Shown one piece after another: positions 6,411-40,223 of a DNA stretch of 64,000 nt (its first letter is position 1; each line of letters starts with the position of its first letter). Below the pieces are notes generated by a model. The model was not told where the DNA came from. It saw only the letters and a list, made by a program, of their open reading frames with translations, and did no database searches. Location: NCBI RefSeq assembly GCF_001050475.1, contig NZ_CP012034.1:2418001-2482000 (forward strand), in the 5' to 3' direction. A program made the translations under genes and the position numbers. The DNA comes from Companilactobacillus ginsenosidimutans (GTDB taxonomy: Bacteria > Bacillota > Bacilli > Lactobacillales > Lactobacillaceae).

Positions 6411-6523
6411 AGACTTTTTCATTACGTGTTTTTATCAGAAGCGATTTTGATAAAAGCATGTAAATAGATGAGTTCATAACGCACGCCCTTGCTGTGGTAG
6501 TCACCGAGGGGATGCGTTTTTTT
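6411..6523 (+). ncRNA. Structured leader or small RNA ending in a terminator upstream of trmL
   Basis: Downstream of a strong promoter lie two hairpins. The first pairs 6424-6437 with 6448-6461 (14 pairs, two of them G-U, with a 10-base loop). The second begins with AACGCA (6478-6483) pairing TGCGTT (6513-6518). Inside it CCC pairs with GGG and GGT with ACC, and it is followed by seven T (6517-6523), the form of an intrinsic terminator. The trmL ribosome binding site AAGGAG follows only about seven bases later. Either this is an independent small RNA of about 110 bases or it is an attenuator controlling trmL. I do not recognise it as a known riboswitch, T-box or 6S RNA. Confidence 0.55.
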
Positions 6524-36738: not shown

Positions 36739-37680
36739 ATGAAAGAATTCGACGTAGTAGTAATAGGTGCAGGTCCTGGTGGACTAACAGCCGCATTGTA
36801 CGCATCACGTGCTAATTTATCAGTAATGATTTTAGATCGTGGTATTTATGGTGGCCAAATGAATAACACCGCTGAAATTGAAAATTATCCTGGATTTGAT
36901 TCTATTTTAGGACCAGACCTCAGTGAAAAAATGTATCATTCATCAACAAGATTTGGTGCAGAATTTGGTTACGGTGCTGTTGAATCAGTTGAAGATAACG
37001 GTAATCGTAAGATCGTTCACACAGATGACGGTGATTACGAAGCCAAAGTTGTAATTGTTGCAACAGGTTCACAATATAAGAAAATCGGCGTTGCTGGTGA
37101 AAATGAATTATCAGGACGTGGAGTATCTTACTGTGCCGTATGTGATGGTGCATTCTTCAAGGATCAAGATGTAGCCGTAATCGGTGGTGGAGATTCCGCT
37201 GTTGAAGAGGGAGTTTACCTAACTCAAATGGCAAAATCCGTAACAATTATTCATCGTCGTGACCAATTGCGTGCACAAAAAGTCTTACAAGACCGTGCCT
37301 TCAAGAATGATAAAATTAAATTTGTTTGGAACGCCGACGTAAAAGAAATCGTCGGTGAAGACGATAAAGTAGCCGGTGTCCGCTATGTAGACAAAGAAAC
37401 TGGTGAAGAACACGTAGTACCTGCAAAAGGTGCATTCATTTATGTAGGTATCCAACCAATGACAGAACCATTCAAGAGTTTGGGTATTCTTGACGATGCT
37501 GGCTGGATTGATACTGACACACACATGAAGACAAACGTTGCCGGAGTTTATGCTATTGGTGATGTTCGCAAGAAGGATTTGCGTCAAGTTGCTAATGCTG
37601 TTGGTGAAGGTGCAATAGCTGGTCAAGAAGCATTCAATTATATTCAAACATTGTCAGACGCTAAAGTTTCTGCAAAATAA
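36739..37680 (+). CDS. trxB: Thioredoxin reductase
   Basis: A 313-residue flavoprotein that uses NADPH to reduce thioredoxin. The FAD-binding GAGPGGLTAALYASRA is at residues 10-25. The redox disulfide is CAVC at residues 132-135 in SYCAVCDGAFF, the NADPH site is GGGDSAVEEGVYL, and TNVAGVYAIGDVR is the second FAD contact. The start has AAGGAGG upstream. It is followed by the unusual 824-bp gap with two large folded repeats. Confidence 0.96.
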   Translation: MKEFDVVVIGAGPGGLTAALYASRANLSVMILDRGIYGGQMNNTAEIENYPGFDSILGPDLSEKMYHSSTRFGAEFGYGAVESVEDNGNRKIVHTDDGDYEAKVVIVATGSQYKKIGVAGENELSGRGVSYCAVCDGAFFKDQDVAVIGGGDSAVEEGVYLTQMAKSVTIIHRRDQLRAQKVLQDRAFKNDKIKFVWNADVKEIVGEDDKVAGVRYVDKETGEEHVVPAKGAFIYVGIQPMTEPFKSLGILDDAGWIDTDTHMKTNVAGVYAIGDVRKKDLRQVANAVGEGAIAGQEAFNYIQTLSDAKVSAK

Positions 37681-37693
37681 TTTGATGTGATTA

Positions 37694-37716
37694 TGCGGTT
37701 CACTTCCGCCCTCCGG
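37694..37716 (+). repeat. Left copy of a 23-bp inverted repeat
   Basis: This begins TGCGGTTCACTTCCGCC and matches the reverse complement of 38278-38300 at 18 of 23 positions. Both copies start with TG on their own strand, so together they bound a 607-bp segment like the terminal inverted repeats of a mobile element. Confidence 0.65.
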
Positions 37717-37852
37717 TCAGGTTTTTGGGGGCCGTGGACGCTGTGGACACGTTTCCGAGCCATAGTGCGGTCTCGAAAATCGGCCTCCTTGTAAGCATGC
37801 CCTATGGCATGCAAACAAGGATCTCACGGCTTTGGCCCCCAAAAACCTGACC
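37715..37852. repeat. Folded palindromic element 1 (three-way junction)
   Basis: A perfect 19-bp outer stem pairs 37715-37733 with 37834-37852. Inside are two hairpins. Hairpin A (37752-37779) has CGAG pairing CTCG and CC pairing GG. Hairpin B (37786-37821) has TCCTTGT/ACAAGGA, an AA/AA internal loop and GCATGCC/GGCATGC around a 4-base loop. Four more pairs, GCCC (37708-37711) with GGGC (37856-37859), can extend the outer stem after a 3-base mismatch. Both strands could fold the same way. Confidence 0.85.
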
Positions 37853-37915
37853 TACGGGCTAGTGATCCTCAAACATCAAAGTTAGTTTGGAAACGTACAA
37901 ATATATATATTAGGT

Positions 37916-37949
37916 GGCTCAATTCAGAATTGGATTGGGTCTTTTTTTT
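37916..37949 (+). terminator. Probable trxB terminator
   Basis: GGCTCAAT (37916-37923) pairs with ATTGGGTC (37934-37941), with two G-U pairs, followed by eight T (37942-37949). Its distance from trxB (236 bp) puts element 1 inside the trxB transcript. Confidence 0.6.
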
Positions 37950-38134
37950 GTTTTCTGAGGAAAACTGTTTTTTTTGCTTTTTGTATTAAATGATTAATCA
38001 GATGATAATCTAGAATGGAAGATTTTTCAAAACCAAAGTAAATAGGTTAGTAAGTACCCAAACAGAGCACGTATGTCCAATCTTTGGCCCCACCCACCAA
38101 AGAATAAATTGATTGATATCCTCGTCCGAAGGGC

Positions 38135-38275
38135 GGGATTATACAATGCTCAGCCATGAAATTTTCCTTAGTCGGGGATGCCCCCGGCTTAGGAAAAGAC
38201 TCAGGTTTGAGATTTTTTCGGTCTGTGAAAAAAGCTCAAACTGATGTCCATGGCGTTCCAGCGTTGTATAATCCC
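38135..38275. repeat. Folded palindromic element 2 (three-way junction)
   Basis: A 16-bp outer stem pairs 38135-38150 with 38260-38275 (one G-U pair), continued by GCCATG (38153-38158) with CATGGC (38249-38254). Hairpin A (38162-38197) pairs TTTTCCT with AGGAAAA and CGGGG with CCCCG. Hairpin B (38201-38244) pairs TCAG/CTGA, TTTGAG/CTCAAA and TTTTTTC/GAAAAAA. The architecture and length (141 bp) match element 1 (138 bp), but the stem sequences are different. Confidence 0.85.
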
Positions 38276-38277
38276 AA

Positions 38278-38300
38278 CCGTAGGACAGCAGTGAACCACA
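38278..38300 (-). repeat. Right copy of the 23-bp inverted repeat
   Basis: On the minus strand it begins TGTGGTTCACTGCTGTCC and matches 37694-37716 at 18 of 23 positions. It lies immediately outside folded element 2, as the left copy lies immediately outside element 1. Confidence 0.65.
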
Positions 38301-38460
38301 CAAAACAGCAATCTACTCCAACATAAATGTTTTTAACCCATTTTTAAGCTAATATCACTAAACTCAAGTAACATCTAAACTGTTTTACTAAAATAATCCA
38401 TCAAAGCACTATAATTTTACTAATAAATTTACTCTAACAACTACTAATATCGTGGAAAAT

Positions 38461-38504: not shown

Positions 38505-40223
38505 ATGGCTTGGCAAGAAAATATGAAAAAATGGCTCGATTATTCTGAATTGGATCCTGAGTTAAAAGAACAATTGGCCGAATTGAAAAATGATGATGAT
38601 AAAGCTGAAGAAGCTTTTTATGCACCTATGGAATTTGGTACAGCTGGTATGCGTGGGGTCTTGGGACCTGGAATTAACCGCATGAATATCTACACAGTAA
38701 GACAGGCTGCCGAAGGTTTAGCTTTATTTATGGATACTTTGGATGAGAAAACTAAGGCTCGTGGTGTTGCTATTAGTTTTGATTCTCGTTATCACTCACA
38801 AGATTTCGCAATTGAATCTGCTAAGGTTTTGGGAGCTCACAATATCAAGACTTTCGTATTCGATAGTTTGAGACCAACTCCTGAATTATCATTTGCGGTT
38901 AGAACTTTGAATACATACGCAGGTATCATGATCACTGCTAGTCACAATCCTAAACAATACAATGGTTTCAAGATTTATGGTCCAGATGGCGGTCAAATGC
39001 CACCTGTCGAATCTGACAAGATTACTGATTATGTCAGAAAAGCTGATGACTTGTTTGCCATCAAAGTTAAGACTGTCTATAAACTCCGTGAAGAAAAGTT
39101 GATGCAGTTGATTGGTGAAGATGTTGACCAACAATATTTGGCAAAACTTGATATCGTAGTTGTTAACCACGATTTAATTAATAATGTTGGTAAGAATATG
39201 AAGTTCGTTTATACTCCTCTTCATGGTACTGGTAAAATGATTGCTCCAAGAATTTTCCAAGATTTAGGTTTCAACAATTTCAATATGGTTAAAGAACAAG
39301 CTATTCTTGACCCCGAATTTGGAACAACTCCATTTCCTAATCCTGAATTTGCTCAAACATTTGATTTGGCAATTTCACTCGGTAAAAAAATTGAAGCTAA
39401 TATTTTAATTGCTACAGACCCTGATGCTGATAGATTGGGTGCAGCTGTTCGTCAACCTGACGGTTCATATAAATTGATGACAGGTAATCAAATTGCGTCA
39501 GTACTGCTAAACTATATTTTGAAAGCTAAGAAAGATACTAATACGTTGCCTGAAAATGGTGCAGCCGTTAAGTCGATTGTTTCAACTGAATTAGCTACTG
39601 CCATTGCTAATAAGTATGGCGTTAAGATGTATAACGTTTTAACAGGATTCAAGTATATTGCTGAAAAAATTCAGAACTTCCAAGACGATAAGAGTCACGA
39701 ATTCTTATTCGGATTTGAAGAAAGTTATGGATACTTAGTTAAACCATTTGTTCGTGATAAGGATGCCATGCAATCAACAATTTTGCTTGCTGAAGCTGCT
39801 GCTTATTATGAATCACAAGGAAAAACTATTTATGATGGTCTTGAAGACTTATATAAAGAGTTTGGTTACTACCGTGAACAAACTATTTCAAAGACTTTTG
39901 ATGGTGTTTCAGGTAAGGACCGCATGGCGGGAATGATGAAAGAATTCCGTGAGGAAGGAATTAAAGAAATCAATGGTGTCAAAGTTGTTGAGTCATTGGA
40001 TTACTTGAACAAGACTGACACTAAGGATGGTCAAGTATCTGACACCGGACTTCCAAAGGCTGATGCATTGAAATTTATCCTTGAAGACGGTACTTGGGTT
40101 GCCGTTCGTCCTTCAGGTACTGAACCTAAAATGAAATTCTACATTGGAATTACTAGTGATTCTGATGACAGTGCTGCCAAGAAACTTGCTGGATTTGCCA
40201 AAGTTATTGAAACTTGGGAATAA
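38505..40223 (+). CDS. pgcA: Alpha-phosphoglucomutase / phosphomannomutase
   Basis: A 572-residue enzyme that interconverts glucose-6-phosphate and glucose-1-phosphate, feeding UDP-glucose and surface polysaccharide synthesis. The phosphoserine loop is ITASHNPKQYNG with the catalytic Ser146; the metal loop is ATDPDADRLGAAV, the sugar-binding loop is GFEESYGYLV, and the C-terminal phosphate site is VRPSGTEPKMKFY. The length fits the large Firmicute PgcA type rather than GlmM (about 450). The start has AGGAGGA upstream and an extended -10 promoter. Confidence 0.96.
   Translation: MAWQENMKKWLDYSELDPELKEQLAELKNDDDKAEEAFYAPMEFGTAGMRGVLGPGINRMNIYTVRQAAEGLALFMDTLDEKTKARGVAISFDSRYHSQDFAIESAKVLGAHNIKTFVFDSLRPTPELSFAVRTLNTYAGIMITASHNPKQYNGFKIYGPDGGQMPPVESDKITDYVRKADDLFAIKVKTVYKLREEKLMQLIGEDVDQQYLAKLDIVVVNHDLINNVGKNMKFVYTPLHGTGKMIAPRIFQDLGFNNFNMVKEQAILDPEFGTTPFPNPEFAQTFDLAISLGKKIEANILIATDPDADRLGAAVRQPDGSYKLMTGNQIASVLLNYILKAKKDTNTLPENGAAVKSIVSTELATAIANKYGVKMYNVLTGFKYIAEKIQNFQDDKSHEFLFGFEESYGYLVKPFVRDKDAMQSTILLAEAAAYYESQGKTIYDGLEDLYKEFGYYREQTISKTFDGVSGKDRMAGMMKEFREEGIKEINGVKVVESLDYLNKTDTKDGQVSDTGLPKADALKFILEDGTWVAVRPSGTEPKMKFYIGITSDSDDSAAKKLAGFAKVIETWE

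Follow-up and report, generated by a model that had tools for sequence, protein, structure and literature searches.

The window, a stretch of 64,000 nucleotides from the genome of Companilactobacillus ginsenosidimutans, carries trxB at 36739-37680 and pgcA at 38505-40223 according to its ORF list, and the gap between these two genes accommodates two large palindromic elements, here called arm A and arm B. The arms lie in opposite orientation between inverted ends, resulting in the order inverted end, folded arm (plus strand), spacer, folded arm (minus strand), inverted end. The individual features of the gap are the following.

37681..38319, no strand assigned: possible full extent of the composite, read from the sequence
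37694..37716, plus strand: left inverted end with the family motif GGTTCACTnCCG..CCTCCGG, sharing 18 of 23 positions with 38278-38300 read as reverse complement
37704..37863, plus strand: arm A, a three-way-junction palindrome (covariance model R1, 115.3 bits, E 1.8e-29)
37708..37733, plus strand: arm A outer stem, 5' side, pairing with 37834-37859 (88%)
37750..37783, plus strand: arm A first inner hairpin, the variant with a GAGCCATAGTGCGGTCTC part, from folding (drawn differently on the plus strand) and from the model alignment with mismatches
37786..37821, plus strand: arm A second inner hairpin, from folding
37834..37859, plus strand: arm A outer stem, 3' side, pairing with 37708-37733
37916..37951, plus strand: putative trxB terminator, a terminator-like hairpin followed by a T tail in the spacer
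38088..38102, minus strand: inner motif CTTTGGTGGGTGGGG, found by eye
38120..38290, minus strand: arm B, a three-way-junction palindrome in the opposite orientation (model R1, 146.7 bits, E 4.8e-38)
38124..38150, minus strand: on that strand the 3' half of the arm B outer stem, pairing with 38260-38286 (81%)
38260..38286, minus strand: on that strand the 5' half of the arm B outer stem, pairing with 38124-38150
38278..38300, minus strand: right inverted end, matching the left end at 18 of 23 positions

The inverted 23-bp ends described in the initial annotation were confirmed on re-reading the sequence, and they represent the outer left ends of the two arms. The motif GGTTCACTnCCG..CCTCCGG also stands at the start of most of the family copies inspected. 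The outer limits of the window unit are uncertain; a direct repeat just outside 37681..38319 (AAAATAA/AACATAA, 6 of 7 positions) is not evidence of a target duplication; a systematic test found no exact 7-bp duplication for this unit. The segment contains no ORF of 80 or more amino acids, consistent with the earlier view that no gene explains it. The hairpin at 37916..37951, which the terminator search placed at 37916-37941, is weak when taken alone because this search found one such structure where shuffling predicts 0.9. By eye, terminator-like hairpins are flanked by arms in several other units, and motifs like CTTTGGTGGGTGGGG occur 3' of many arms in the C. ginsenosidimutans genome.

Folded together with their flanks, both arms are far more stable than chance would give. 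The z scores amount to -8.0 (plus strand) and -10.8 (minus strand) for arm A and to -7.1 and -5.6 for arm B, and none of 200 shuffles was as stable on either strand of either arm. The palindromes initially annotated at 138 and 141 bp do exist, but their sizes required revision to about 152 and 163 bp, as given by the outer stems. The common three-way-junction plan proposed for them is borne out by a single covariance model, R1, which matches arms A and B in opposite orientation. The model comprises 167 positions and 62 pairs and was built from 19 diverse copies from the same and other genomes, one of which is arm B; arm A was absent from the training sequences. As had also been pointed out, the stems of arms A and B differ in sequence and yet retain their pairing.

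Throughout the family, an arm consists of approximately 165 nt, with an outer stem and two hairpins arranged around a three-way junction. The outer stem is mostly 15-20 bp long and is interrupted close to the base by a TCC/TCC-like internal loop; the sequence of this stem varies widely among lineages. It is followed by an asymmetric loop, in which GGAACG faces CTGAG, then by a short stem and the two hairpins, the first of which mostly bears a 7-nt loop. The variant first hairpin with GAGCCATAGTGCGGTCTC is present in arm A and in further copies. A second repeat of about 85 nt, itself composed of two hairpins, is nested within arms at six positions of genome G000 (90959, 145440, 1155740, 1197555, 1683971, and 1908756), adjoins arms in G029, and is also found near loci L065 and L086.

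The initial annotation had suggested a covariance-model search for further copies, and such copies turned out to be plentiful in the same genome, in the genus, and in the Lactobacillaceae. BLAST searches of the 2.59-Mb C. ginsenosidimutans genome returned 47 matches for arm A, with some palindromes matched from both sides, and 29 for arm B. R1 matched 34 of the 36 Companilactobacillus genomes, with at least 79 candidates scored in 11 of them, and 80 of the 301 sampled Lactobacillaceae genomes, which represent 14 of 40 genera. An order-level sample gave matches in 12 of 295 genomes, all of them Lactobacillaceae, the listing of this sample not showing how many of the 295 fall outside that family. 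An exact pattern combining the conserved loop and a hairpin detected 51 stretches among one genome each of 84,980 species, which by record title belong to Companilactobacillus, Lacticaseibacillus, Limosilactobacillus, Schleiferilactobacillus, Levilactobacillus, Lactiplantibacillus, and one "uncultured Lactobacillus". In the open-access literature searched, we found no description of the arm family. Rfam did not yield a match on an arm, neither in the window at the gathering score nor in 12 + 14 loci at relaxed thresholds. Elsewhere in the window, the Rfam search identified the 23S-methyl RNA motif (RF01065, 65 bits) at 6419-6523.

Phages gave no match, viral contigs no exact match to one pattern, and plasmids no match to the window unit or to one G026 unit. 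A Lacticaseibacillus stretch matched six plasmid records, four of them over its arm part. Arm copies are present on mobilisable plasmids, once within an ISLre2-like unit, and mobilisable plasmids are a possible route for arms between species.

The arms recur in a defined arrangement. Among neighbouring arms no more than 700 bp apart, 43 of 46 pairs are convergent with their left ends outwards (+-), two are --, one is ++, and none is -+. The same limit applied to a second set, which overlaps in part with the first, gave 24 of 26 pairs as +-, two as ++, and again no -+, with 21 arms having no partner in the stretch fetched. The 46-pair set comprises 87 of 88 R1 hits (one short overlapping hit was left out) and 48 of 58 rows of a further set, from which four duplicates, the partial arms L023 and L034, and four hits scoring below 45 bits were removed; the 26-pair set comprises 69 of 74 rows, five below 31 bits being left out. 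The loci of named species overlap partly with those of G030 and G031. Spacers of the +- pairs in the 46-pair set range from 23 to 527 bp. The 607-bp segment of the initial annotation is therefore a recurrent unit, because adjoining arms converge with their left ends outwards. The hairpins between the arms vary from copy to copy in the C. ginsenosidimutans genome. Arms may also move or be copied alone, since the ends diverge among lineages while the arms are conserved. A different, array-like arrangement occurs at G112:C4:201743-202479, with three tandem arms followed by one inverted arm, 12-92 bp apart.

Among the trxB loci examined, only that of the window carries the pair. We fetched 30 trxB loci for the 36 genomes; the window's own carries both arms, 28 carry no arm within 1.5 kb, and that of G035 has one arm, which differs in sequence and lies past the trxB terminator. 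G007, a relative of G035 with the same extra downstream gene, has no arm. At locus L094, no pgcA start lies within 1.5 kb, and the arm there was detected by the R1 run. The trxB-pgcA gaps of L096 (G016) and L097 (G015) lack an R1 match and appear, by eye, to be filled by another palindromic repeat family. Empty sites, which the initial annotation had proposed to look for, were found along with full ones between G005 and G026, for which 400 kb each were compared.

The most informative target sites came from the group of genomes G005, G006, G008, and G026, in which 13 distinct units are bounded by 22-bp GGTTCTTTCTTAAGTTAGGTTA-like ends (up to 5 mismatches). The seven longest units of this group measure 513-529 bp and the six others 277-413 bp; they are short units without a transposase gene, and the complete ones contain, by eye, an extra terminator-like hairpin in their middle. 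An exact target duplication of 6-9 bp flanks 9 of the 13 units, compared with 6 of 156 mismatched flank pairs. It is 7 bp long in eight of the nine and 9 bp in one, although the length beside GG..CC ends is partly ambiguous, and some can be read as 8 or 9; six of the eight abut the unit on both sides. When rejoined, the nine target sites fold at -11.3 kcal/mol or below (mean -16.4), against a mean of -7.1 kcal/mol for the control mismatched flanks, 23 of 72 of which fold at -9 or below. In eight of the nine targets the duplication lies within the loop of a hairpin whose stem is flanked by T runs, and mostly by A runs as well, a layout known from intrinsic terminators. The one exception, a G005 unit of 299 bp, has its duplication outside the hairpin loop. 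Most of the features that define a MITE are present in this one species group. Target duplications elsewhere did not exceed the control: 7-bp matches flank 2 of 10 units in the window genome against 13 of 90 in the control, 38 composites tested together gave two clear cases, both in G026, and another 24 gave one, L321, which is the same G026 unit as L200.

Arms are themselves interrupted in genome G000, where the same insertion sequence of about 1.7 kb resides inside two divergent arms (1203632-1205499, L029/L023, and 2405925-2407779, L035/L037). It occupies the same internal-loop position in both, with 3-bp repeats GGT and GAA, and a third arm (L026) abuts its end. It is IS3-like in having two ORFs, the second of which bears an rve integrase core. 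The arm may serve as an insertion target for this element.

As for a transposase partner, the end-sequence scan of four genomes revealed no intact autonomous element. The only Y1 transposase gene of the C. ginsenosidimutans genome was rejected as a partner, having no arm within its 3.4-kb locus. Three of the larger arm-to-arm gaps were checked (L046, L027, and L128). The L046 gap encodes a pyridoxamine-oxidase-like protein and the L027 gap HicB-like and DUF6290-like proteins, both below the Pfam cut-off; these are ordinary genes. L128 of C. halodurans (G009, 325-1673) contains 314-bp inverted repeats, 87% alike and with one arm each, that enclose a decayed gene. This remnant has many stops, and its last 74 amino acids match PF01610, the ISL3 transposase family, at 23.6 bits (cut-off 23); 103 protein fragments matched it, most of them with PF01610, the top one being named a transposase of C. 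halodurans. The relic had no plasmid match and, among all loci in the analysis, matched only itself and one weak hit at chance level. A decayed ISL3-type gene between arm-bearing repeats hints at a parent of the family. It is a lead from one locus only, with a score right at the PF01610 cut-off, and a chance neighbourhood of two composites and an unrelated transposase remnant could look like this relic. Plasmids of Levilactobacillus brevis and Lactiplantibacillus plantarum (L362:2914-4648 and L363:2913-4652) have in common a unit in which a single arm follows an ISLre2-like transposase. R1 was run on L362, L363, and five relatives; among the five, only the Loigolactobacillus one has an arm, which is weak and degenerate (20.5 bits), and ISLre2 was rejected as the parent. 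We interpret the unit as the result of an arm landing downstream of a transposase gene. None of the 36 genus genomes matched PF06782, but the control genomes gave no match either.

Covariation within the arms is very strong. In the 19 copies, 57 of 65 pairs show double changes, a number reached in none of 500 shuffles, and paired cells make up 91.5% against 67.9% after shuffling; the count of further pair types is less telling, with 42 of 500 shuffles attaining it. Double changes affect 57 of 62 pairs in 88 copies, an alignment fitted to R1. Dividing one-sided by two-sided changes gives 0.018 (A1) and 0.042 (A2) without the fixed G-T columns, against 0.34 for RNase P RNA, and 0.028 (A1) and 0.046 (A2) over all columns, against 0.63 for RNase P and 0.18 for 12 tRNAs, although the contrast with RNase P is weakened because the divergence differs between the sets. 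The G-T share is 0.9% (A1) and 2.0% (A2) against 2.2% for RNase P without the fixed columns, and 3.5% (A1) and 3.6% (A2) against 9.7% for RNase P and 7.0% for 12 tRNAs over all columns. The RNase P control made use of 30 of 36 genus loci and the tRNA control of 12 usable of 42; 6S RNA, also sought as a control, gave no match. The one-sided ratio is the telling signal, and the G-T share alone separates little.

Of the three outcomes that the initial annotation had named as refuting, none occurred in the form given: copies abound, covariation is very strong, and six arms from four pairs of related loci have 24 pairs doubly changed, 8 changed on one side with pairing kept, and 26 broken. Two arms account for 20 of the 26 broken pairs; one of these two is misaligned, and its orthology is doubtful (L322/L063, 64% across the entire loci). 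By eye, the second-hairpin stem differs as a block in four of the six arms. Copying from repeat to repeat seems to make much of the compensatory pattern, as is suggested by related copies differing by a whole hairpin on both sides. The earlier proposal of selection on the fold consequently stands in part: pairing is kept and fixed mismatches persist, but whole hairpins are swapped on both sides at once. That pairs change on both sides together, and seldom on one, points to a DNA fold combined with copying between repeats. From the sequences, we read the pattern as probable copying between repeats and hairpin-templated repair, with selection keeping the fixed mismatches.

A transcribed element in the 3' UTR that stabilises mRNA 3' ends, acts in anti-termination, or boosts terminators, maintained because its RNA fold is under selection and spread by gene conversion, would account for the position of many arms. 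By simple ORF calls, 21 of 46 arms in C. ginsenosidimutans begin 8-46 nt after a same-direction stop codon, and a sense gene lies upstream of 27 of the 46. Starts directly after stop codons fit either a 3' UTR role or insertion in a harmless zone before terminators, and 18 of the 46 arms face an opposite-strand gene upstream, as arm B does towards pgcA. Terminator-like hairpins between several arm pairs (by eye), the internal loops GGAACG and CTGAG conserved across genera, and an A2 G-T share close to that of RNase P favour an RNA, but one-sided changes, relative to two-sided ones, are only about a tenth as frequent as in the RNase P RNA of this genus, the presence of arms is lineage-specific, and Rfam offers no match on an arm. 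We regard this explanation as unlikely; the structured-RNA reading of the initial annotation draws on the many arms directly after stop codons, but the scarcity of one-sided changes argues for a DNA fold.

The two arms could instead be single REP-like mobile units that were inserted independently around the trxB terminator, their pairing reflecting a preference for terminator flanks. The varying spacers and hairpins among the units of C. ginsenosidimutans, the arms directly after stop codons, the lone arm on the far side of the trxB terminator in G035, and the tandem ++ and -- neighbours are in line with independent insertion. It is nevertheless quite unlikely, given the complete absence of -+ pairs and the units of the G005/G026 group, in which pair and spacer together are bounded by inverted repeats and one target duplication. 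Very improbable, in our judgement, is a neutral palindrome kept self-complementary by repair alone, with neither mobility nor a recognised fold: hairpin-templated repair should indeed leave double changes and hardly any intermediates, but fixed mismatches and loops persist across genera, and movement is evident from copy number, empty sites, and the target duplications of the G005/G026 group, which largely contradict it.

We consider it likely that the segment represents a single composite copy of a MITE-like DNA element, non-autonomous and spread across the Lactobacillaceae. Among the four readings offered in the initial annotation, the MITE-like one is best supported, by the further copies, the convergent pairs, the lineage-specific presence, and the terminal inverted repeats and duplications of one species group, even though the window copy has no clear target duplication and the search yielded no working transposase. 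The ends of such a composite element would be the substrate of a DDE transposase provided in trans, which may belong to the ISL3 family. The arms could extrude as DNA hairpins or cruciforms, forming three-way junctions whose fixed mismatches would mark the strand, and the extruded arms might serve recognition or synapsis. Terminators would be chosen because they also extrude a hairpin, and insertion there would be harmless. Both sides of a stem would be kept in step by copying from repeat to repeat, through gene conversion and hairpin-templated repair. A further-reaching and rather doubtful proposal, which we offer tentatively, is that of a shape-read transposition signal: an enzyme, of the ISL3 type or another, might recognise the folded arms and not their base sequence and join the unit into other DNA hairpins, namely the loops of intrinsic terminators, so that donor and target would both be picked by fold.

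Such a signal would allow one architecture to be kept across a bacterial family while its sequence drifts. The repeat family provides a testable case of mobile DNA with a conserved fold rather than sequence, of insertion into terminator loops, and of compensatory change by copying, which is a warning for covariation-based RNA discovery. A large repeat whose shape is conserved over 14 sampled genera, with dozens of copies in many genomes, also has a bearing on the genome annotation of food and gut lactobacilli.

Integron attC sites and the ends of IS200/IS605 elements are folded single-stranded DNA, in which mismatches carry strand identity and the sequence varies. By analogy, the arms would work alike, although the analysis tied neither a tyrosine recombinase nor an HUH enzyme to them. 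The pneumococcal BOX, RUP, and SPRITE elements are dispersed structured repeats of a Gram-positive bacterium with nested insertions, the SPRITEs being terminator-like (PMC10969869). Set beside them by description only, the arms are likewise dispersed, structured, Gram-positive, and subject to nested insertions, and they differ in residing in other bacteria. REPs and REPINs resemble the arms as intergenic palindromes that often form inverted dimers (PMC3733652). As a lead, many arms outside the C. ginsenosidimutans genome open with TGCCGTC, which contains the CGTC tag of one REP superfamily. With about 165 nt, an arm is nevertheless not a classical REP of 20-40 bp (PMC3733652), and, unlike in a REP/REPIN system with its RAYT, the only Y1 transposase of the C. 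ginsenosidimutans genome has no nearby arm.

Tn7546, a transposon of the ISL3 family, is described as having 11-bp ends, GGGTCTTCGGA, and an 8-bp duplication (PMC9782665). The GG(T/C)TCTTT ends of the units start with GGnTCTT as in Tn7546 (PMC9782665), and the decayed ISL3-type gene between arm-bearing inverted repeats, seen in C. halodurans L128 only, may be a further likeness. In contrast to the Tn7546 values just cited, the best-defined ends of the units are 22 bp long and the duplication is 7 bp in 8 of 9 cases, and, unlike ISL3 transposons, no intact ISL3 gene was seen with the arms. MITEs are short, gene-less, intergenic, and multi-copy, with terminal inverted repeats, short target duplications, and stable stem-loops (PMC10969869). 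The arm units are similarly short, gene-less, intergenic, and multi-copy, with terminal inverted repeats, stable folds, and, in the G005/G026 group, short duplications. Unlike MITEs, they carry two large inverted three-way-junction folds inside their ends, which are conserved across genera while the ends diverge, and, in the group with readable targets, they are inserted mostly into terminator-like loops.
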